Shown: positions 11,273 to 26,518 of the stretch, piece after piece
Numbering within the stretch: position 1 is the stretch's first letter
How the letters are laid out: each line of letters begins with the position of its first letter
NCBI GenBank assembly: GCA_903904335.1
Contig: CAIVCF010000237.1
Span: 1 to 38,224 of the forward strand
Direction: 5' to 3'
Source: an uncultured Chitinophagaceae bacterium
Lineage (GTDB): Bacteria; Bacteroidota; Bacteroidia; Chitinophagales; Chitinophagaceae
DNA: 38,224 nucleotides
The notes under the pieces: generated by a model
Database searches by the model: none
The model's input: only the letters and a program-made list of their open reading frames with translations
What the model was told of the DNA's origin: nothing
Translations under genes and position numbers: made by a program

Positions 11273-14200
11273 TTATTCATCATCATCAAAACTCATTGCT
11301 TCACGGGTTGAAGTTAAAACCTCATATTCTTCCTTGCTACCAACGATCATGTTTTCAAAGTCACGCTGACCTGTACCAGCAGGGATCAAATGACCGGTGA
11401 TCACATTCTCTTTCAATCCCATCATATAATCAGCTTTACCGTTAATGGCTGCAGAGCTTAATACTTTGGTAGTTTCCTGGAATGATGCAGCAGAGATCCA
11501 GCTTTGTACACCCAATGATGCTTTGGTGATACCCAACAATACAGGCGTTGCTGTTGCAGGTTTTGCATCACGTACTTCCACTAATTTTCTGTCTGATCTG
11601 CGAAGGATAGAATTTTCTTCTCTCAATTCACGAAGTGTAACGATCTGTCCGGCTTTGAACTTAGTGCTTTCACCTGATTCAGTTACAACTTTCTTATCGT
11701 AAATGCGGTCATTCTCTTCAATAAAATCAAATCTGTCTTCGAGATCTTCTTCTAAGAATTTAGTATCACCTGCATCAACGATTTCAACTTTCTTCATCAT
11801 CTGACGAACGATCACTTCAATATGTTTATCATTGATCTTCACACCCTGCAAACGATAAACTTCCTGAATTTCATTCACTACATATTCCTGCACTGCAAAA
11901 GGTCCTTTGATAGAAAGAATATCTGCCGGAGCAATTTGACCATCTGATAATGGTGCACCTGCTTTTACAAAGTCACCATCCTGAACAAGAATCTGACGAG
12001 TTAACGGAACTAGATATTTCTTAACTGCACCATCTCTTGCTTCAACGATAATTTCCCTGTTACCACGTTTTACATTACCGAATGCAACCACACCATCAAT
12101 CTCGCAAACTACTGCAGGATTACCCGGATTTCTTGCTTCGAATAATTCTGTTACACGTGGCAAACCACCCGTGATATCTCTTAATTTTCCTAACACACGA
12201 GGAATCTTCACCAATACCTGTCCTGCTCTTACATCATCTCCTTCTTCAATAGAGATATGGCTTCCCACAGGTAAGTTATATTGTCTGTGATCTTTTCCTT
12301 CAACAATAACCGTAGGGATCTTTGTTTTATCTTTTGATTCGATAACCACTTTTTCGCGGTGACCTGTTTGTTCATCAGCTTCATCACGATAAGTAAATCC
12401 TTCCAAGATATTATCGAATTTGATCTTACCATTTTGTTCTGCAACGATAACATTGTTAAACGGATCCCAAGTACAGATCACATCACCTTTCTTCACTACC
12501 TGTCCATCTTTCACTTGTAATGTTGAACCGTATGGAACGTTATTGGTAATTAATAAACGATCGTTCTTCACATCCATGATTCTTACTTCACCTGTACGAC
12601 CGATCACTATATTTACTTTAGTGCCTTCGTTATTTGTTGTAGCAACAGTTCTTAATCCATCAAACTGAATGGTACCATCGAATCTTGCATGCAATGCTGA
12701 TTCAATTGAAGAAGAACCCGCAACACCACCCACGTGGAAAGTACGCAACGTTAACTGTGTGCCCGGCTCACCGATTGATTGTGCAGCAATGATACCCACT
12801 GCATCACCACGTTGAGCTAAATAACCTGAAGCTAAATTTTTACCATAACATTTTACACAAACTCCACGTTTGCTTTCGCAGGTTAATACAGAACGAATTT
12901 CAACTGATTCAATTCCTGCATCTTCAATTGCCTGTGCCACTTCATGTGAAATTTCTTCACCTGCTTTAATGATCAATGCATCTGTAACCGGATTGAATAC
13001 ATCATGCAAAGAAGTACGACCTTCAATTCTGTCTGCTAATGGTTCAATAATGTCTTCATTATCTTTTAATGCAGTTGTTGCAATACCACGCAATGTGCCG
13101 CAATCATCTTCACCAATTACAACATCCTGAGATACATCCACCAAACGACGAGTTAAATAACCTGCATCCGCAGTTTTCAAGGCTGTATCGGCCAAACCTT
13201 TACGAGCACCGTGTGTTGAGATAAAATAATCCAATACATTCAATCCGCCTTTAAAGTTAGACAGGATCGGGTTTTCAATTACTTCACTACCTGTGCTGCC
13301 GCTCTTTCTTGGCTTAGCCATCAATCCACGAATACCCACCAACTGTTTAACCTGTGTTTTAGAACCACGGGCACCTGAATCCAACATCATGAATACAGAG
13401 TTGAATCCTTGCTTGTCCAAGGTCATTTCACGAATTAAACTTTCAGTGATCTTCATATCCACTCTTCCCCAAATATCAATCACCTGATTGTAACGTTCGT
13501 TGTTGGTGATCAATCCCATATTATAGCTTTCCCAAACTTCTTCTACTTCTGCTTTAGCACTATCCAATAATTCATTTCTGATTTCAGGAACGATCAAATC
13601 ATTAACGCTGAATGATAGACCACCTTTGAATGCCATACGGAATCCAAGTGTTTTAATATCATCTAAGAACTTTGCAGTTTTTGGAACGTTTGTGATCTTG
13701 ATAATGTCGCCAATAATTTCTCTTAAATTTTTCTTGGTCAACAATGCATTGATATAACCCACTTCTTCAGGAACGTGTTGATTGAATAAAACACGGCCAA
13801 CAGTTGTATCAATTAATTTCTTCACCAACTTTCCGTTCTCACGAACATTGGTTCTTACTTTAATATTTGCATGAAGATCGATTGCATTTTCATTGTAAGC
13901 AATGATCACTTCATCCAAACTATAGAAAGCTTTGCCTTGTCCTTTTACGATTTCTTTATCAGTTGATTTTTTTCCTTTAGTGATGTAATACAATCCCAAC
14001 ACCATATCCTGTGAAGGAAGAGTGATAGGTGTACCATTCTGTGGATTCAAAATATTGTGTGATGACAGCATCAACAACTGTGCTTCCAATATTGCAGCGT
14101 TACTTAATGGAACGTGCACCGCCATCTGATCACCATCGAAATCCGCGTTGAATGCAGAAGTAACCAATGGATGTAACTGAATGGCTTTTCCTTCCACCAA

Positions 14201-15556
14201 TCTTGGTTGAAATGCTTGTATGGATAAACGGTGCAATGTTGGGGCACGATTTAATAATACAGGATGGCCCTTCAAAATATTTTCTAAGATATCCCAAACA
14301 ACAGCTTCTTTTCTGTCAACTAATTTCTTAGCAGACTTTACTGTTTTTACGATACCTCTTTCAATTAATTTTCTGATGATAAATGGCTTGAATAATTCAG
14401 CAGCCATATCTTTCGGTAAACCGCATTCCTGCATTTTAAGATCAGGACCAACCACGATTACAGAACGACCTGAATAATCCACACGTTTACCTAACAAATT
14501 CTGACGGAAACGACCTTGCTTACCTTTCAATACATCACTCAAAGATTTCAATGCACGTCCACCTTCTGCTTTTACCGCATTTGATTTACGTGAATTATCA
14601 AACAATGAATCTATTGCTTCCTGCAACATACGTTTTTCATTACGTAGGATTACTTCAGGAGCTTTGATCTCCAATAATCTTTTCAAACGATTGTTACGAA
14701 TGATCACACGACGGTACAAATCATTCAAATCTGAAGAAGCGAAACGACCGCCATCCAATGGAACCAATGGTCTTAATTCAGGTGGAATAACAGGAATATA
14801 TTGCATTACCATCCATTCAGGACGGTTGGTAATTCTGTTGCTTGCATCACGGAATGCTTCAACCACACTCAAACGTTTTAAAGCATCTGCTTTACGTTGT
14901 TGAGATGTTTCAGTTGCTGCAGCATTACGCAAAGAGAAACTCAGTTCATCCAGATCTAATCTGCCTAAAAGGTCTGATACAGATTCAGCGCCCATTTTGG
15001 CTATGAATTTCTGTGGATCTTCATCAGGTAAGTATTGATTATCTTTTGGAAGATTATCAATGATATCCAAATATTCTTCTTCTGTTAATAGATCACCGGT
15101 TCCCAAATTTTCTTTCACACCACCCTGGATCACCACATATCTTTCATAATACACTATGCTTTCTAATTTCTTAGAACTCATTCCTAATAAATAACCGATC
15201 TTATTGGGCAATGATTTAAAATACCAGATATGAACAACAGGCACTACCAATTTGATATGCCCCATACGTTCGCGACGAACCTTCTTTTCTGTTACTTCAA
15301 CACCGCAACGATCGCAGACGATTCCTTTGTAACGTATACGTTTGTATTTTCCGCAAGCACATTCGTAGTCTTTAACCGGACCGAATATTCTTTCGCAGAA
15401 TAATCCGTCACGTTCAGGTTTGTAAGTACGGTAGTTAATGGTTTCAGGTTTCAATACTTCACCGAAACTTCTTTCCAGAATTGAATCCGGAGAAGCAAGG
15501 CTGATGGTAATTTGTGAGAAGCTTGGTTTGGGACGATTGTCTCTTTTAATAGCCAT
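11273..15556 (-). CDS. rpoC: DNA-directed RNA polymerase subunit beta' (RpoC)
   Basis: 1427 residues from the usual MAIKRD start; a TTG two codons upstream is less likely. The N-terminal zinc ribbon has C66, C68, C81 and C84. The catalytic loop NADFDGDQM is at 470-478, with Mg-binding D472, D474 and D476. [16 protein letters not shown] (356-371) and the bridge/trigger-helix region ([11 protein letters not shown]..., [16 protein letters not shown]) are intact, and a second zinc site is [11 protein letters not shown]. The length fits Bacteroidota RpoC. Unusually, neither rpoB nor ribosomal protein genes precede it: upstream is a 426-base non-coding stretch with a promoter-like TACCTTTG box, and then unrelated genes. 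The gene ends in a strong terminator. Confidence 0.99.
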
Positions 15557-15725
15557 ATCCAATTACGGTTTTGATTTGAAGTACCACCATCTTAAATCTC
15601 CTTTATTTGGTTTCCATTGCATCACATACTTGTACATTCTTAGCACACAAAGCACTAAGACAAGCTGCAGTCTAACCTAAACAGTAAAATAAAAGGGATA
15701 CAATACTTCAAAATTGTTAAGGCGG

Positions 15726-16392: not shown

Positions 16393-17454
16393 TTAATTAT
16401 GAATCTTGCTCAGTTTTTCATAGTTAAGAATGGTGATCTTACTCACATTAATCTCGATCAGTTTTTCTTCTTTAAAATCGCTTAATGTTCGAATAGTGCT
16501 TTCCGTTGCAATACCTGCAAGATTGGCAAGGTCTTCTCTCGAAATACTTATGGTGAAATTTTTATCTGCTTCATTTTTGTAACGGTCATATAGTGTTACC
16601 AATGCATCCGCAACTTTTTTTCTGACAGAATTATATGCAAATTTTAAAAGTTGTTCTTCTTTGTCGCGCAGATTATCTGAAAGCATTTTGATAAATTTTC
16701 TCGACACCTCTGAATTTTTATAGACCAATGCATAAAAATCATCTTTTGGAATTAAACAAACTTCCACATCTTCCAATGCAACCGCTGAATCTGAATATTT
16801 ACTTTCTTCCAGTAATGCGAGATACCCAAAAAAATCGCCCTCTTTGTATAAGCCTGTAATCAATTCTTTTGCCTGATCATTGAGTTTGCATGTTTTCAAT
16901 TTGCCTTTATTCAGAAAATAAATTCCTTTAGGATAATTTTCCTCTTTATAGATTTCCTCTTTTTTCCGGTACACTCTTATTTCGCATTCTTCCGATAATT
17001 TTTTCAAAGTATCAAAACCTCTCACCTCCTGAATAAAATTATTAAGTCCCTCTGCATTTTTAGCGAATTCCTTTTTGATCAATTCCGCTTTTTTTAATCT
17101 GCTTTCAATCGCGTTGAGTAATTCAATATCATCAAAAGGTTTAGTGATATAATCATCAGCGCCCATTTCCATTCCTTTTCTGAAATCAGTTCTTTCTGCC
17201 TTTGCGGTAAGAAAAATAAATGGAATACTTGCTGTTTTTTCATTCTTCGACAACATATGCAATACGCCATAGCCATCTAAAACAGGCATCATGATATCAC
17301 AGATAATCAGATCAGGTTCTTCTTTCTCTGCAAGTTCAACACCTTCTTTTCCGTTCATGGCTGCAATCACTTTATAATGTGCCAACTGCAATATTTCTGC
17401 AGTGTTCTCACGCATTTCTGCATTATCTTCTATCAATAAAATTTTCTTATTCAT
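16393..17454 (-). CDS. REC-CRP/FNR fusion transcriptional regulator
   Basis: 353 residues. An N-terminal receiver domain (ILLIEDN at 5-11, phosphoacceptor D53 in IICDIMMP, the Thr of FLTAKAE, the Lys of YITKPFDD) is joined to a cyclic-nucleotide-binding-type beta-barrel (about 150-270) and a CRP-type winged helix (ISREDLANLAGIATESTIRTLSDFKEEKLI). In the barrel the CRP pattern GELGLFEEGQERSA is GYLALLEESKYSDS, so the cAMP-contacting Glu and Arg are replaced. cAMP binding is therefore unlikely, and phosphorylation probably provides the signal. The start overlaps the histidine kinase stop by 4 bases, so the kinase at 17451 is its obvious partner. Confidence 0.92.
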   Translation of the reverse strand: MNKKILLIEDNAEMRENTAEILQLAHYKVIAAMNGKEGVELAEKEEPDLIICDIMMPVLDGYGVLHMLSKNEKTASIPFIFLTAKAERTDFRKGMEMGADDYITKPFDDIELLNAIESRLKKAELIKKEFAKNAEGLNNFIQEVRGFDTLKKLSEECEIRVYRKKEEIYKEENYPKGIYFLNKGKLKTCKLNDQAKELITGLYKEGDFFGYLALLEESKYSDSAVALEDVEVCLIPKDDFYALVYKNSEVSRKFIKMLSDNLRDKEEQLLKFAYNSVRKKVADALVTLYDRYKNEADKNFTISISREDLANLAGIATESTIRTLSDFKEEKLIEINVSKITILNYEKLSKIHN

Positions 17455-18686
17455 TGCTCAATATAATTTGGAAGCTTTATGATAAATATAGTTCCCTTTT
17501 CTGATTTACTTTCAAATGTGATAGTACCGTTCATCAATTCTACATATCGGGCCACGATATTTAATCCGAGGCCTGTACCCTGAATATTGGAGGCATTATG
17601 GCCACGGAAAAAACGCTGAAATAAATGTTCCTGATCTTCTTGAGGTATGCCTATTCCACTGTCTTTTACTTTTATTTCAATTACCGTTTCATTTACCATA
17701 GTAAACACTTCTATCGGTTTTGATTCGGGAGAGAATTTAATGGCATTCGAAACCAGATTGAATAAGATATTTTTGAGAATTTTATGATCAAGATACACTT
17801 CCTGGTTGCCGGAATGATGGAAATGAATTTGCTGTCCAGCTTTAGCAAGTGTTTGCAATTCCTGTATCGCCTGTAAAATAAAATCTTTGATATTAAACAG
17901 ATCAGGTGTAGCTATAATTTTTCCTTCTTCCAATTTACTCAACGACAGCATATCATTTAAAATATCCGTTAAATGCGTGATGGATGTTTTTATGCGATTG
18001 ATATGTTTTGCCTGATTATCTTTCTCACCGATCTCTCCGTATTTTGTCACCAATGAAAGAGACGAAAGTATGGTTGCTAAAGGTGTTCTGAATTCATGCG
18101 ATGCCATGGAAACAAAACGTGTTTTCAATTCATTCAATTCCTTTTCTTTTTCCAAAGCAATGCTGAGCTCTTCTCTTGAATTCTCCAATTCATGCAATGC
18201 TTCTTCCAAAATCATGGTTCTGTCTTTTACTCGCTTATCCAACTCATTTGCGAGTTGTTGTAACTCTTCTTTTTGATTTTTAAGAATCTCTTCGTTTTTC
18301 TTTCTGATCGTTATATCAATAATAAAAGCAATTACAAACTTTCCTTCATCATTACTGAAAGGGCTTAAACTTATTTCAAGAGGTATTTCTTCACCATCTT
18401 TTTTCTTCCCATATAAATCCATCCCGATACCCATTGAACGGGGATGCGGATTTTTGGAATACTTTTCGCGATGATGGGAATGGTTGCTGAATCTTTTAGG
18501 GATCAATATTTCGATGGGTTTACCTATCAGCTCACCGTCGCGATAGCCAAATAATTTTTCGCAGGAAGGATTGGAGAGAACTATATTACCTGCATCATCA
18601 ATTACTACAATCCCTTCGCTTGCATATTCAAATAATGCGCTGAATTTTTCTTCGGAAGATAATAATGATGTTTTGTCCACTTTCAT
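17451..18686 (-). CDS. Cytoplasmic PAS-domain sensor histidine kinase
   Basis: 411 residues. A PAS domain (about 10-130: FEYASEGIVVIDDAGNIVLSNPSCEKLFGY...) is followed by a coiled coil (about 130-190) and HisKA with the phosphoacceptor H197 in SMASHEFRTPL. The ATP-binding domain has the N box around 306-314 (NILFNLVSNAIKF), DSGIGIP (342-348) and GTGLGL (370-375). No transmembrane segment is present, so the signal is internal: a small ligand, redox state or partner protein sensed by the PAS domain. It is translationally coupled to the REC-CRP regulator. The unknown 602-aa gene is 82 bases upstream on the same strand. Confidence 0.95.
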   Translation of the reverse strand: MKVDKTSLLSSEEKFSALFEYASEGIVVIDDAGNIVLSNPSCEKLFGYRDGELIGKPIEILIPKRFSNHSHHREKYSKNPHPRSMGIGMDLYGKKKDGEEIPLEISLSPFSNDEGKFVIAFIIDITIRKKNEEILKNQKEELQQLANELDKRVKDRTMILEEALHELENSREELSIALEKEKELNELKTRFVSMASHEFRTPLATILSSLSLVTKYGEIGEKDNQAKHINRIKTSITHLTDILNDMLSLSKLEEGKIIATPDLFNIKDFILQAIQELQTLAKAGQQIHFHHSGNQEVYLDHKILKNILFNLVSNAIKFSPESKPIEVFTMVNETVIEIKVKDSGIGIPQEDQEHLFQRFFRGHNASNIQGTGLGLNIVARYVELMNGTITFESKSEKGTIFIIKLPNYIEQ

Positions 18687-18768: not shown

Positions 18769-20577
18769 CTAAGCTTCTACTAAGAGAAGTCTTTCCATTG
18801 TTACGTTCAAATCACTTTCAACAGTAACAAGATTTTCCAAAAAGTTTCCGTCATTCGGCAAAATTTTATTTTCCAGCAATCCCCGGTAGTATTGAATGCC
18901 GTCCATAATACTTGTATAAAAACCACGCAGATATTTTAATTTTTTTGGATCGTTGGTTCCTTCATTTTCCTCTACCTGTTCTTTTAAATAGCTCACATAT
19001 AATTCCAATTCTTTTTGGAACATATTGGGTCGGTAACCTTCTTTTAATACATTTCCTCTTCCGTAGATATGATCAATCATTCTTTTAAGCGGAACTACCT
19101 GAGAAAAATAAGCAATATTCGGTCCCGGACAAATAGTAACGCCTGTTGCACTTTTCAATAATGGTTTGGTGATATGGCAACTGGTAACTGTATTGCTGAG
19201 CCCTAAACAGAGACACTCTTTATCCAAGATCAATTTCTTTTGTTTCGCTAATTCTTCTTCACTCAAATTCTGAGATTCCAACAGTTCTAATTTCAGTTTT
19301 TGATATTTAGTTGATGCCGTACAAATAGGTTGATCCGTAAATTCCATATTGCTTTCCAAGAATTTTTCGGGGCATGGGCTTCCAGGTAAACCCATATCAA
19401 TTCGATGAAATTTTTCTTCTTCTCCGGTTGTCTTTTTTAAGTAATTGAAACGGATACCCAAAGGAGAATTTTTACTTAAAATAATATCTTCTTCTCTTGA
19501 ATCGCATAAACGCTGTAATGTATGCGCATCAACATTTGTAGCTTCCGGAACCAATAAGAAAGGGCTTCCCCATCCTGTTCCGTCCACCTGATAATAATCT
19601 CTTAAAAATTTATCTTCTTTCGCAGTACCGATCCCACCCTGAACTGTAATTCTTGTATGCGGCATTTTTTCAGGTACTTCCTTCCCTTTTTCAGCTAAAG
19701 ATTTTGTGTACAATGCAAATAATTCTGCCAACATTTCTTCTTTCTTCTGCTTGAACTCTTCTAATATTGGTCCTAATAAATAACCATCGGTTGCAAAAGC
19801 ATGACCGCCGCAATTCAATCCTGACTCAACCCTGAATTCAGAAACCCACAAACCTTTTTTCGCTAAAAATTTACCTTGAATCAAGGAGGAACGATAATCA
19901 CTTACTTTAATGATGATCCTTTTTACAAAACTTCCGTCTTTTACTGTTCTGAACTGTTCAAAATTATCTAAGTAATTGTACAAACGGGGATTCATTCCCG
20001 CAGAAAAAACAACAGATGAATTGGTGAGATCGCTGTTTACATAACCGCGTAAAGCAGTCAATGCATCCGAGCCCTCGGCAATCATATTGCCATCTTTATC
20101 CAAACGGTTGTTATCTAATTTTGTCATGATGTTTACATCAATACAACCGGGTTTGATCTCTTCACGAAGCTTGTCCTGCAATTTTTCTTTTTGAACAGAA
20201 TCTGTCATTTCCAGCATTGTATGGTATAAATGTTTCAGCTTACTGTCATCAGGCAGCATTTCAAAATATTTTACAATTTCCGATCCCGTTTCAAATGCCT
20301 TTGTTTTCAACTGCTCGAATTTTGAATGCACGATCCTGTTCACCAGATTGAGATAATCCGTTACCCGTTTTGCACGGTGATCCATATCAATCAATGGAAT
20401 CGGAATATATAATTCGTTCAATTGATTATAGTAATATTCACGCATCCTTTCGAGTAAAGTATCTTCAATGATCGAGATAACGGAAGAAATACCATAAGGC
20501 GCAACCTTAACCGGAGTGTCTACAGTAAATGCCAAACCCATAACAGGTATGTGAAAAGTATGATCAGAATATGCCAT
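18769..20577 (-). CDS. Conserved protein of unknown function, possible flavin/TIM-barrel enzyme
   Basis: 602 residues with no signal peptide. I recognise it only as a large Bacteroidota conserved protein. The middle resembles FMN-dependent nitronate monooxygenase/PfaD-like TIM barrels: SGLNCGGHAFATDG (GGH loop), ITVQGGIGT (phosphate-binding strand/loop) and VDGTGWGSPFLLVPEATNVD. The C-terminal third is Cys-rich, with SPCP, QPICTAS, DKECLCLGLSNTVTSCH and TICPGPN, which could bind a metal or an Fe-S cluster. These are pattern resemblances, not proof. It lies between the 518-aa helical protein gene and the kinase/REC-CRP pair, all on the same strand. A perfect dyad (20611-20630) lies 34 bases ahead of its start. 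Confidence 0.6.
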   Translation of the reverse strand: MAYSDHTFHIPVMGLAFTVDTPVKVAPYGISSVISIIEDTLLERMREYYYNQLNELYIPIPLIDMDHRAKRVTDYLNLVNRIVHSKFEQLKTKAFETGSEIVKYFEMLPDDSKLKHLYHTMLEMTDSVQKEKLQDKLREEIKPGCIDVNIMTKLDNNRLDKDGNMIAEGSDALTALRGYVNSDLTNSSVVFSAGMNPRLYNYLDNFEQFRTVKDGSFVKRIIIKVSDYRSSLIQGKFLAKKGLWVSEFRVESGLNCGGHAFATDGYLLGPILEEFKQKKEEMLAELFALYTKSLAEKGKEVPEKMPHTRITVQGGIGTAKEDKFLRDYYQVDGTGWGSPFLLVPEATNVDAHTLQRLCDSREEDIILSKNSPLGIRFNYLKKTTGEEEKFHRIDMGLPGSPCPEKFLESNMEFTDQPICTASTKYQKLKLELLESQNLSEEELAKQKKLILDKECLCLGLSNTVTSCHITKPLLKSATGVTICPGPNIAYFSQVVPLKRMIDHIYGRGNVLKEGYRPNMFQKELELYVSYLKEQVEENEGTNDPKKLKYLRGFYTSIMDGIQYYRGLLENKILPNDGNFLENLVTVESDLNVTMERLLLVEA

Positions 20578-20610: not shown

Positions 20611-20630
20611 TTATCTTGAGTGCAAGATAA
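20611..20630. promoter_or_regulatory. Perfect dyad TTATCTTG-N4-CAAGATAA, candidate operator
   Basis: Two exact 8-bp arms separated by AGTG, 34 bases upstream of the 602-aa gene. The minus strand also reads TATCTTGC here, close to a -7 box, so a bound protein would cover the promoter. The half-site spacing (N4) is that of CRP/FNR-family sites such as TTGAT-N4-ATCAA, and a CRP-family regulator is encoded two genes downstream. Confidence 0.5.
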
Positions 20631-22502: not shown

Positions 22503-23669
22503 ATGAGTACCAACAAAGTCAACATTTTTGACACCACATTGCGCGATGGCGAACAAGTGCCCGGCTGTAAATTAAATACAAAAGAAAAAATAGAATTAGC
22601 ATTGGCATTGGAAGAATTGGGCGTTGATATTATTGAAGCAGGTTTCCCCATTTCATCTCCGGGCGATTTTTCTTCAGTGAATGAAATATCCAAGATCATT
22701 AAGAACGCCACTGTTTGCGGATTAACCAGAGCCGTTCAAAAAGATATTGAAGTGGCCGCCGAAGCATTGAGATATGCAAAACGTCCGCGTATACATACCG
22801 GTATCGGAACATCCGATTATCATATCAAAGGCAAATTCAATTCTAACAGAGAAGATATTTTAGAACGTGCCATCCAATGTGTAAAGTGGGCAAAGAATTT
22901 TGTGGATGATGTTGAATTTTATGCGGAGGATGCAGGCAGGACAGAAAATGAATATTTAGCAAGAGTGGTGGAAGCAGTTATTAAAGCAGGTGCCACTGTT
23001 GTGAATATTCCTGATACTACCGGCTATTGTTTGCCCAATCAATACGGTGATAAGATGGCTTATTTAAGAACTCATGTTTCCAATATCGATAAAGCAACAC
23101 TTTCCTGTCATTGTCATAATGATTTGGGTTTAGCAACTGCCAATTCCATTGAAGGTGTGATCAATGGTGCTCGTCAAATAGAATGTACCATCAATGGTTT
23201 GGGTGAAAGAGCAGGCAATACTTCATTGGAAGAAGTGGTGATGGTTTTAAAACAACATAAACATTTAGGTTTCACTACCCATGTAAATACAAAATTATTG
23301 AACCCGTTGAGCCGTCAGGTAAGTGATATCATGCGTGTGCCTGTTCAACCCAATAAAGCCATTGTTGGTGCGAATGCATTCTCGCATTCATCAGGTATTC
23401 ATCAGGATGGATTTTTAAAGAGTGCCATTACTTATGAAATTATCGATCCCGTTGATGTTGGTGCCGATACCTCAAAAATTGTTTTAACTGCCAGAAGCGG
23501 AAGAAGTGCATTAGCCTTTCGTTTAAAAAAATTAGGGTACGATTTTAACCGCAATGATGTGGATGTTTTATATCAAAAATTTTTACAGATAGCAGATAAT
23601 AAAAAAGAGATCAATGACGAAGACCTTCACCAAATGGCAAAACAACATGAATCTGTTGAAACTGTATGA
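22503..23669 (+). CDS. leuA: 2-isopropylmalate synthase, short form without regulatory domain
   Basis: 388 residues. [12 protein letters not shown] (residues 9-20) and [14 protein letters not shown] are the HMGL-like TIM-barrel metal and substrate signatures, and [12 protein letters not shown] is the conserved C-terminal loop. It condenses acetyl-CoA with 2-oxoisovalerate, the first step of leucine synthesis. The protein stops after the barrel and short accessory helices; the ~110-residue C-terminal domain that binds leucine in long LeuA enzymes is missing, so feedback control may be weak or exerted through the leader RNA. Homocitrate and citramalate synthases look alike, but the leuB-ilvD context supports LeuA. 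It is the first gene of the ilv/leu cluster. Confidence 0.9.
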
Positions 23670-23718
23670 CATTTGCTATTGAATGAGCAGCTCGACTAAA
23701 CGACTTCTCAAAAAAATT

Positions 23719-24834
23719 ATGAAAAAAAATATTACAGTCATTAGCGGAGATGGCATCGGCCCTGAAGTAATTGCACAGGCTGTTCGTGTATTGAATGCCG
23801 TTGCGCAAAGGTTTCATCATGAATTTAATTATACTTATTGCTTGATGGGTGCTGTTGCCATTGAGCAAACAGGCAATCCACTGCCCGATGAAACCATTGA
23901 GGTTTGTTTAGAAAGTGATGCTATCTTATTCGGCGCAGTGGGTCATCCGAAATTTGATAATGACCCTGCAGCAAAAATGAGACCTGAACAGGGTTTACTT
24001 AAACTGAGAAAATCATTACAACTGTTTGCAAATATTCGCCCGGTTAATACTTATAGCGTATTACATCATTTATCTCCATTAAAAGAAAAACAATTAGAAG
24101 GCGTTGATTTTATCATCTTCCGAGAACTAACCGGCGGCATCTATTTTGGTAAAAAAGAATTGATCGAAGATGGAACAAAAGCGATTGATGAATCTGTGTA
24201 CACCGTTAATGAGATTGAACGCATTGCACATATCGCTTTTAAGAATGCACAACTACGAAAGAAAAAATTAACGCTGGTAGATAAAGCAAATGTTTTAGAG
24301 ACATCCCGTTTGTGGAGAAGAGTGGTTCAGAAAATTGCAGAAGAGTACAGTGATGTTACTGTTGATTATATGTTTGTTGATAATGCTGCCATGCAGATCA
24401 TCCTCAATCCAAAACAATTCGATGTAATACTTACAGAAAATATGTTTGGTGACATCATCAGTGATGAAGCAAGTGTTTTAAGCGGATCTATCGGCATGTT
24501 ACCCTCTGCATCTTACGGCGTTTGCACTGCATTGTTCGAACCCATTCATGGTTCCTATCCGCAGGCTGCCGGAAAAGATATTGCTAATCCGATCGGTTCT
24601 ATTTTATCTGTGGCGATGATGCTGGATTATTTTCAAATGCACGAAGAAGCGGCAAGAGTAAGACAAGGTGTTACATGGACCTTACAAAACAAATTCGTTA
24701 CAAAAGATATTGATCCCATCAATTTTTATTTCACCACAACTGTTGGCGAATTGATCAGTGATTATGTGATCAATAAAATTACAGACGAGATCAATCATGA
24801 AAATATTGAATTAAGAAAATCAACGATCATTTAA
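23719..24834 (+). CDS. leuB: 3-isopropylmalate dehydrogenase
   Basis: 371 residues from ATG 23719 ([17 protein letters not shown]), the start matching the family; an upstream ATG at 23683 would add 12 residues. The dinucleotide and Mg/isopropylmalate motifs are clear: [50 protein letters not shown] and [27 protein letters not shown]. It oxidatively decarboxylates 3-isopropylmalate with NAD+. It lies 49 bases after leuA and 1 base before ilvD, so the three genes form one transcription unit. The isomerase genes leuC and leuD, which act between LeuA and LeuB, are not in this window. Confidence 0.96.
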
Positions 24835-24835
24835 A

Positions 24836-26518
24836 ATGGCAGAATTAAATAAATACAGTAAAACATTAACGCAAGACGAAACACAACCGGCAGCCCAGGC
24901 CATGTATTATGCCATTGGCATGAAGGATGAAGATTTTAAAAAAGCACAAGTGGGCATTGTAAGTATGGGATGGGATGGCAATCCCTGTAACATGCATTTG
25001 AATGATCTGGCAACCACAGTCAGAGAAGCAGTAAACACAACAGATGGTTTATTGGGTTTACGTTTTTACACCATTGGCGTAAGTGACGGGATCAGCATGG
25101 GAACAGATGGTATGCGTTATAGTTTAGTAAGCCGCGATTTAATTGCCGACAGCATTGAAACCAATGCAGGTGCTCAATATTATGATGCACTCATTACAAT
25201 TCCCGGTTGCGATAAAAATATGCCTGGTTCCATTATGGCAATGGGAAGATTGAACCGTCCAAGTATCATGTTGTATGGTGGAACGATTGCAGCAGGTCAT
25301 TATCACGGACAAGATTTGAATATTGTTTCTGCATTTGAAGCATTAGGACAAAAATTGGCAGGCAATTTAGATGAAGCAGATTTTAAAGGGATCGTAAAAA
25401 ATAGTTGTCCGGGTGCAGGTGCATGCGGTGGTATGTACACAGCCAACACAATGGCAAGTGCGATCGAGGCATTGGGAATGAGTTTACCTTATTCTTCTTC
25501 CAATCCTGCAATGAGTGAAGAAAAACAAAAAGAATGTGCAGCAGTGGGTGAAGCCATCAAATTATTATTGGAGAAAGATATCAAGCCAAGAGATATCATG
25601 ACACGTAAAGCATTTGATAATGCCATTACTGTTGTGATGGTGCTTGGCGGAAGCACGAATGCCGTATTACACCTGATTGCTATGGCAAAAAGTGTGGGTG
25701 TTGCATTAACACAAGATGATTTTCAAACCATCAGTAATAAAATTCCTGTATTGGCGGATTTTAAACCGAGCGGAAAATATTTAATGGAAGACCTTCATAA
25801 ATATGGTGGTGTTCCTGCAGTGATGAAATATTTGTTGAAAAATAATTTATTGCATGGTGATTGTTTAACAGTAACCGGAAAAACGGTTGCAGAAAATTTA
25901 GCAGCAGCGCCTGATCTTGATTTTGATCAGCAAAAAATTATTGCGCCTTTAGATAAACCATTAAAGGCAACAGGTCACTTACAAATTTTATACGGCAATC
26001 TCGCAACCGGAGGAAGTGTTGCAAAAATTTCAGGTAAAGAAGGCGAACGTTTTGAAGGAACTGCCAGAGTGTTCAATGGTGAGAAAGATGTGATTGAAGG
26101 AATAAGAAATGGCAAAGTTCATGCAGGGGATGTGGTGGTGATTCGTAACATCGGACCGAAAGGTGCACCTGGTATGCCGGAAATGTTGAAACCAACAGGA
26201 GCCATTATTGGCGCGGGTTTGGGCAAATCAGTAGCATTGATCACTGACGGCAGATTTAGTGGCGGTACACATGGATTTGTCGTCGGCCATATCACACCGG
26301 AAGCACAGGATGGCGGATTGATCGCATTGGTGGAAGACAATGATATTATTGAAATTGATGCCAATAAAAACTCACTCATTCTAAAAGTTGCGGATGATGT
26401 GATCGCTAAAAGAAGAGCAGCCTGGAAACAACCTGCATTAAAAGCAACCAGCGGTGTTTTATATAAATATGCAAAATTGGTGAAGACAGCTGCTGATGGT
26501 TGTGTAACGGATGAGTAA
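24836..26518 (+). CDS. ilvD: Dihydroxy-acid dehydratase
   Basis: 560 residues, full length. Fe-S cysteines are in [16 protein letters not shown] and [17 protein letters not shown], and the [11 protein letters not shown] and [21 protein letters not shown] blocks of the IlvD/Edd family are intact. It dehydrates dihydroxy-isovalerate or dihydroxy-methylvalerate to the oxo acids that precede valine, leucine and isoleucine. The start codon lies 1 base after the leuB stop, so translation is coupled. A CCCCTGAAGGGG palindromic repeat begins at its stop codon. Confidence 0.97.

Follow-up and report, generated by a model that had tools for sequence, protein, structure and literature searches.

A distant FabX-like flavin-barrel family in Bacteroidota, linked to nitrogen-oxide respiration genes, as a candidate for oxygen-independent acyl-chain chemistry

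Introduction

FabX of Helicobacter pylori (HP0773; PDB 7e1q, 9lt5, and 9lt8) is described in PMC8626469 as a dehydrogenase/isomerase of chains bound to acyl carrier protein (ACP), with flavin mononucleotide (FMN) in a barrel, a [4Fe-4S] cluster, and H182 as the catalytic residue; there, cysteines 300, 304, 308, and 320 hold the cluster and a basic helix holds the ACP. Its homologue in Neisseria gonorrhoeae, NGO1024, is tied to anaerobic growth and induced with nitrite reductase according to PMC3032703 and PMC11300592, the latter giving ca. 36% identity between NGO1024 and a FabX of gut Bacteroidales. Here, we compare with these systems a protein of 602 amino acids (aa), P0001, encoded on contig CAIVCF010000237.1 (assembly GCA_903904335.1) of an uncultured Chitinophagaceae bacterium; the window is the whole stretch of DNA analyzed, 38,224 nucleotides. 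An original prediction, made from the letters alone, had suggested a flavin-type barrel and a possible metal cluster for this protein. We found a predicted fold like that of FabX and, well supported for a number of Bacteroidota lineages, a link through gene neighborhood and a shared promoter palindrome to a regulon of anoxia and nitric oxide (NO).

Results

The P0001 family and its fold

The open reading frame (ORF) of P0001 lies at positions 18769 to 20577 on the minus strand, the original prediction having given the span and length but no strand. It begins with ATG and has its stop codon within the span; the plus strand across the same positions has many stops. The gene is single copy in its own genome. 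Relatives are encoded on 191 stretches of genome contigs, of which 80, with 52 to 93% identity to P0001 over the best segment, were taken. An alignment of 79 rows (P0001 and 78 of the 80 relatives, since contig ends cut L034 and L078) has 103 invariant columns. This conservation indicates that the ORF is a real gene, and the protein is, as had been suggested, a large conserved one. At an E value of 0.001, 142 of 395 sampled genomes of the phylum had a match, one of them (G290) only through a 123-residue piece.

Family models, on the other hand, did not recognize P0001. No Pfam family matched it at E 1, no NCBIfam model reached E 0.1 or its own cutoff, and neither the NCBIfam FabK model nor the Pfam nitronate monooxygenase (NMO) family (PF03060) matched at E 1; Pfam NMO was also not among the best 25 of the 49 families listed for 79 family members. 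A phmmer search of PDB sequences with P0001 gave no match at E 10, and the family profile found only chance-level PDB matches, FabX not among them. The PHROGs search returned nothing better than E 0.011, and plasmid records had no tblastn match. In open-licence literature on anaerobic fatty acid enzymes of Bacteroidota or on nos/nor-linked genes and regulators, the family is not named in the listed titles or abstract openings.

The AlphaFold2 model, built with the 79-row alignment as input, had a predicted local distance difference test (pLDDT) value of 88.3 and a predicted template modeling (pTM) score of 0.90, residues 257 to 260 (the GGH loop) being the sole stretch with pLDDT below 50. In a Foldseek search of the PDB, H. 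pylori FabX ranked first (E 2.9e-10), above the enoyl reductase domains of DfnA/MlnA, PfaD, FabK, and nitronate monooxygenases. VIA gave the same first match (Z 28.0, root mean square deviation 3.2, with 335 residues aligned and model residues 2 to 507 placed on FabX 8 to 363), then PfaD (Z 24.2), mycobacterial fatty acid synthase (FAS) (23.3), and FabK (23.0); NMO/2-nitropropane dioxygenase rows followed at Z values of ca. 19 to 22, and the NADH:quinone reductase PA1024, within that range of Z, has the same fold. A FabX-like fold is well supported for P0001 by this model, in agreement with the flavin TIM barrel that had been guessed from its loops.

Invariant residues and cysteines

Residues N149, E251, C256, H259, G314, G315, G335-W336-G337, S371, and P372 were found in all 79 rows, as were C402, C419, C455, C457, C483, P484, P486, and N487. 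The family has six invariant cysteines, Cys256 (within NCGGH), Cys402 (SPCP), Cys419 (PICT), Cys455 and Cys457 (ECLCLG), and Cys483 (TICPG). The motifs quoted in the original prediction (NCGGHAF, VQGGIGT, SPCP, PICT, ECLCLG, TSCH, and TICPG) are all in the translation, and conservation of the cysteines, by which it proposed to be judged together with the barrel, was complete for SPCP, PICT, ECLCLG, and TICPG but not for TSCH: at the position of its cysteine (C467), 73 of the 79 rows have a gap. Given that the other cysteines are kept and the model contains a barrel, the prediction stands in its main lines. In the helix at residues ca. 228 to 241, aligned to the basic helix of FabX, R229 and K240 are invariant and K236 and K241 nearly so, which makes it a candidate ACP site. 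The features of the gene are as follows (iron-sulfur, Fe-S).

18769..20577, minus strand: P0001, FabX/NMO-like protein, 602 aa (ORF, conservation, model fold)
19801..19827, minus strand: ESGLNCGGH, residues 251 to 259, aligned to FabX E175..S179-G180-x-H182 (FMN contact and catalytic His); E251, C256, and H259 invariant
19624..19641, minus strand: QGGIGT, residues 313 to 318, GG loop aligned to FabX FMN contacts G220/G221
19558..19575, minus strand: GWGSPF, residues 335 to 340, aligned to FabX QMATRF (240 to 245)
19372..19374, minus strand: Cys402, invariant, candidate Fe-S ligand (alignment)
19321..19323, minus strand: Cys419, invariant, candidate Fe-S ligand (alignment)
19207..19215, minus strand: Cys455-Leu-Cys457, a CxC pair of invariant cysteines and candidate Fe-S ligands; C455 aligned to FabX C320
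19129..19131, minus strand: Cys483 in ICPGPN, invariant, aligned near FabX F339-T340-G341, next to FMN

Relationship to FabX and its relatives

P0001 has no pairwise sequence match to FabX and was connected to it by profile-profile comparison only. As a canonical FabX of the phylum, we used that of a Paludibacter metagenome-assembled genome (MAG) (locus L119; phmmer E 4.5e-70 to the H. pylori FabX chain, with the C..C..C..C block). Searching the 395 genomes with L119 gave 38 genomes at 1e-25, five of which carry a close FabX (>430 bits); the rest include FabK/NMO-like proteins as well as a group of 415- to 458-aa proteins with TCLCTG (the L141 group, read at 16 loci). With hhalign, the 79 P0001-type sequences aligned to a joined set of 22 (6 FabX and 16 L141-group sequences) with a Prob of 94.5 and E 8e-8; restricted to match columns, the comparison scored 45.75 (Prob 68), and the best of 200 column shuffles reached 28.1. 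This joined set was picked after weaker trials (Prob 2.3 for a single FabX, 12.7 for FabX alone, 6.3 for the CxC group alone, and 2.5 for NMO alone), and adding NMO to it gave a Prob of 59.

The profile alignment pairs VNIM with FabX N99, ESGLNCGGH with E175..H182, QGGIG with G220-G221, GWGSPF with QMATRF, SPLG with SPVG, C455 with C320, and PGPN with the loop following F339. FabX N99, E175, H182, G220, and G221 correspond to P0001 N149, E251, H259, G314, and G315, each present in 79 of 79 rows; Q240 is not kept, G335 standing in its place. At the level of sequence profiles, these pairings support a probable homology. The two proteins would share the flavin barrel, the catalytic His, the Asn/Glu FMN contacts, and a cysteine region after the barrel, while P0001 is longer (602 versus ca. 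363 aa), has helices past residue 508 that extend beyond the FabX match, and carries a Cys before GGH where FabX has Ser. The nitronate monooxygenases, FabK, and PfaD share the barrel as well (Z 19 to 24), but P0001 differs from them in its six invariant cysteines and in matching no family model. NGO1024, also called UfaA, resembles the role proposed for P0001 in being FabX related and connected to anaerobic growth, a comparison made through published descriptions only; by its reported identity it is near canonical FabX, unlike the P0001 family.

The L141 group, CxC-type FabX relatives from other Bacteroidota, has a PNC..GKC..TCLCTG pattern that resembles C402..C419..C455-L-C457 of P0001, although L141, unlike P0001, is recognizable by phmmer against FabX (2e-27). 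No NCBIfam model attains its cutoff for L141. The members read were L141 to L145, L147, L149, L150, L153, L155, L158 to L160, L162, L163, and L165 (Bacteroidota families f16 and f18), and the group is possibly a second Fe-S variant of FabX.

Gene neighborhood of the relatives

Flanking genes were clustered over 81 loci (the 80 relatives and the window locus). The recurrent neighbors were YhbP-like (21 loci), Rrf2 (21), NorB-like (20), ModF-like ABC (19), NosL (18), NosD (18), NosY (17), PTPS (17), NosZ (15), RIC (14), histidine kinase (11), and receiver-CRP (9) proteins. The cluster labeled NorB mixes subtypes, and its members of 707 to 712 aa may be cbb3 oxidases, so that its count is superseded by a tblastn test (E 1e-15, matches covering 30% or more of the query, flanks of up to 6 kb) with eight markers: NosZ, NosD, NosY, NosL, RIC, two NorB, and NirK. 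Of the 80 close-relative loci, 35 had at least one marker, as did 13 of 80 loci of a wider set, hand chosen from the 142 carriers and almost all one per genus (G152 twice); one genome is common to both sets (L035 and L168). Among 40 control stretches, hand picked at round positions of carrier contigs and not random, there was one (a NirK match); Fisher P values against these controls were 5e-7 (close relatives) and 0.03 (wider loci). A NorB prevalence based on P0002 (7 of 395 genomes) was dropped: P0002 is a divergent NorB (sole PDB match 4xyd, 1.1e-6), unlike the canonical cNor in L274, and for that reason the count says little.

Seven loci (L010, L011, L019, L021, L029, L035, and L043) share a conserved gene order in which a U32 peptidase, a ferredoxin, and a YhbP-like protein precede P0001; the ferredoxin could be an electron partner.

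Promoter palindromes

When 142 nonredundant upstream regions were searched for dyads with no pattern preset, 19 contained TATGA-N6-TCATA against an expectation of 0.06, and 12 contained ATGAC-N4-GTCAT against an expectation of 0.02. With up to two mismatches, the palindrome TATGAC-N4-GTCATA (TATGACNNNNGTCATA) occurred in 40 of 159 upstream regions, not deduplicated, versus 16 of 1,590 resampled and 3 of 159 downstream regions. With up to one mismatch, it preceded P0001 relatives in 30 of 159 cases and other ORFs of the same loci in 10 of 1,128, several of these 10 sharing the P0001 site divergently; after deduplication, the counts were 21 of 144 and 10 of 1,027. The 2.05 Mb of loci contain 40 copies of the exact form TATGAY-N4-RTCATA, 38 of them outside ORFs; control sequence (0.55 Mb) contains one. 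The form of this palindrome resembles sites of the CRP/FNR family, such as TTGAC-N4-GTCAA of HcpR as given in PMC1274295.

Exact sites precede P0001, a NorC-NorB pair, RIC, receiver-CRP genes, a gene for a protein of 405 to 417 aa, and others. Proteins of that length (L008:4691-5908, L053:4711-5961, and L275:3932-5146) have no Pfam match, the L275 copy appearing membrane-like by sequence; the gene is directly upstream of P0001 in L008 and L053 and after RIC in L275. Whole-genome counts of sites versus the reversed pattern were 7 versus 3 in Aequorivita antarctica, 8 versus 0 in Gramella sp. AN32, and 8 versus 2 in Agriterribacter humi. The A. antarctica sites adjoin P0001, norC-norB (NorB to 3o0r, E 1e-111), RIC, hemA, a cytochrome c gene, and two others, and those of Gramella adjoin P0001, RIC, nirK (divergent to a dienoyl-CoA-reductase-like gene at its site), a hemA-like gene, and three others, with one more site lying between a cytochrome c gene and hemN, whose product is an oxygen-independent replacement enzyme. 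TATGAY-N4-RTCATA is a candidate mark of a compact anoxia/NO regulon in the Flavobacteriaceae Aequorivita and Gramella (L274 to L279, L060, and L024).

Co-occurrence across genomes

NosZ scored over its cutoff in 127 of the 395 genomes, comprising 68 of 142 P0001 carriers and 59 of 253 noncarriers; among genomes negative for the desaturase family PF00487, the figures were 18 of 31 and 21 of 140. The desaturase itself was found in 111 of 142 carriers versus 113 of 253 noncarriers. Of the 224 sampled genomes that have a PF00487 desaturase, none carried a close FabX, and the five close-FabX genomes, a small sample, had neither P0001 nor desaturase. In the genome of P0001, NosZ is on contig 19 and a desaturase on contig 54, and the L119 search of the sampled genomes found no close FabX there.

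The window around P0001

The neighboring sensory pair named in the original prediction was confirmed by Pfam. Downstream and upstream of P0001, we identified the following.

17451..18686, minus strand: histidine kinase (PAS-HisKA-HATPase), downstream of P0001 (Pfam)
16393..17454, minus strand: response regulator with receiver, cNMP-binding, and Crp-type helix-turn-helix domains (Pfam)
20612..20629, minus strand: perfect palindrome TATCTTGCACTCAAGATA, upstream of P0001, candidate regulator site; the only perfect TATCTTG-N4-CAAGATA in the genome

The kinase gene directly follows P0001 in L001 to L005 and L051, and a few further loci have it in the vicinity; across the family, the broader association is with genes of NO/N2O respiration. 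The palindrome TATCTTGCACTCAAGATA recurs with one mismatch in L002, L003, and L051, as read from the alignment; its own genome has one one-mismatch copy, near an ORF that by eye is peroxiredoxin-like. With up to two mismatches, that genome has 18 copies versus 13 of the reversed control, and on that account we draw no own-genome regulon for this site.

Elsewhere in the window, genes at 22503 to 26518 match 2-isopropylmalate synthase, 3-isopropylmalate dehydrogenase, and dihydroxy-acid dehydratase and are divergent to a TPR-like gene of 518 aa that adjoins P0001. An rpoC-type ORF (beta' subunit) spans 11273 to 15562, where hmmscan adds Biotin_lipoyl, Peptidase_M23, and Apocytochr_F_C around residues 970 to 1205.

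Discussion

We consider it quite possible, though as yet a tentative reading, that P0001 is an oxygen-independent acyl (unsaturated fatty acid) enzyme in the anoxia/NO regulon. The FabX-like fold, the conserved active-site pattern with its six invariant cysteines, the neighborhood link, and the shared promoter site are computed results; the cofactors, acyl substrate, reaction, and electron acceptor are what we infer from fold, alignment, and context. P0001 would be a distant FabX-like member of the NMO/FabK/PfaD flavin-barrel superfamily, binding FMN in its barrel and, through C402, C419, C455, and C457, probably a [4Fe-4S]-type cluster, a metal-cluster idea to which its best structural match lends support by analogy, FabX being described with such a cluster (PMC8626469). 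From the alignment, C256 and C483 may lie close to the flavin. Within a regulon that would serve oxygen-limited nitrogen-oxide respiration in several Bacteroidota lineages, the enzyme would most likely oxidize or isomerize a chain bound to ACP or coenzyme A (CoA), placing a double bond without O2 and standing in for O2-dependent desaturases during anoxia; FMN and the cluster would relay the electrons to a carrier, not to O2. The statement that the protein is without known activity strictly holds, but context and fold now indicate anaerobic acyl-chain chemistry.

Several observations weigh against this proposal. The cysteines are spaced C-x16-C-x35-C-x-C in P0001 and C-x3-C-x3-C-x11-C in FabX, and the last FabX cysteine is paired with C419 in the single-sequence alignment and, as C320, with C455 in the profile alignment, a disagreement that leaves single ligand assignments uncertain. 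All eight markers were absent from 45 of the 80 close-relative loci and from 67 of the 80 in the wider set; since most wider loci lack them, the link to genes for NO and nitrous oxide (N2O) is real but partial. At one mismatch, 129 of 159 upstream regions have no TATGACNNNNGTCATA palindrome, and the window has none at two. Several sites lie between divergent genes, making the regulated gene uncertain (the Gramella site is 208 bp from the hemN start and 60 bp from the cytochrome c gene), other sites in A. antarctica and Gramella adjoin unrelated genes, and most of the 8 A. humi sites are not beside respiration genes. All tallies ignore phylogeny, and the NosZ link did not reach significance when desaturase-positive genomes were taken separately (50 of 111 versus 38 of 113, P 0.10). 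Moreover, 31 of 142 carriers had no PF00487 match over the cutoff, and one Paludibacter MAG has both P0001 (L066) and canonical FabX (L119). By strict membership, P0001 is not a FabX, given that spacing and sequence recognition both fail, yet it likely works like one.

The gene neighborhood also suits a flavin/Fe-S enzyme of the same regulon with no part in lipids, one that handles nitrosative damage or nitro/nitroso compounds or serves as an electron-transfer oxidoreductase for NO/N2O respiration. We find this rather unlikely while taking it seriously: RIC (Fe-S repair), Rrf2, NorB, Nos proteins, and a YhbP-like protein of the PNPOx type are among the neighbors, no fatty acid synthesis gene was found among the recurrent neighbor clusters run through family models (a point that also counts against the acyl proposal), and nitronate monooxygenases and PA1024 have the same fold. 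However, the nearest structure, FabX, acts on acyl-ACP, the highest scores all belong to acyl-active proteins (FabX, PfaD, FAS enoyl reductase, and FabK), and the 2-nitropropane dioxygenase reaction is described as consuming O2 (PMC3032703), which makes it a poor fit to an anoxic regulon.

The same ranking, with PfaD, FAS, and FabK next after FabX, together with a 4HBT-type thioesterase beside relatives in 8 of 81 loci, would be expected of an acyl reductase or another FabK/PfaD-like acyl-chain enzyme that is neither dehydrogenase nor isomerase; the extra conserved cysteines of P0001 speak against this, and we judge it improbable. That the kinase and receiver-CRP regulator directly follow P0001 on the same strand in the window lineage might suggest a catalytically dead or sensory flavin protein reporting redox or NO state to that pair, which we hold to be very unlikely, for the counterparts of FabX N99, E175, and H182 are kept without exception and only 11 of 81 loci have the kinase in their flanks.

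As a more speculative and rather doubtful extension, the family might form a separate FabX-type branch, distinguished by how its cysteines are arranged and by one further thiol at either side of the flavin (Cys256 and Cys483), that makes lipid double bonds without O2 in facultatively anaerobic Bacteroidota and passes the electrons to the nitrogen-oxide respiratory chain. NosZ is common in the phylum (127 of 395 genomes) and no close FabX was found in the 224 desaturase genomes. For the route to unsaturated lipids during oxygen-free respiration of nitrogen oxides, the P0001 family would be a concrete and widespread candidate (142 of 395 genomes), and it brings with it a promoter palindrome that may outline an anoxia/NO regulon in Flavobacteriaceae.
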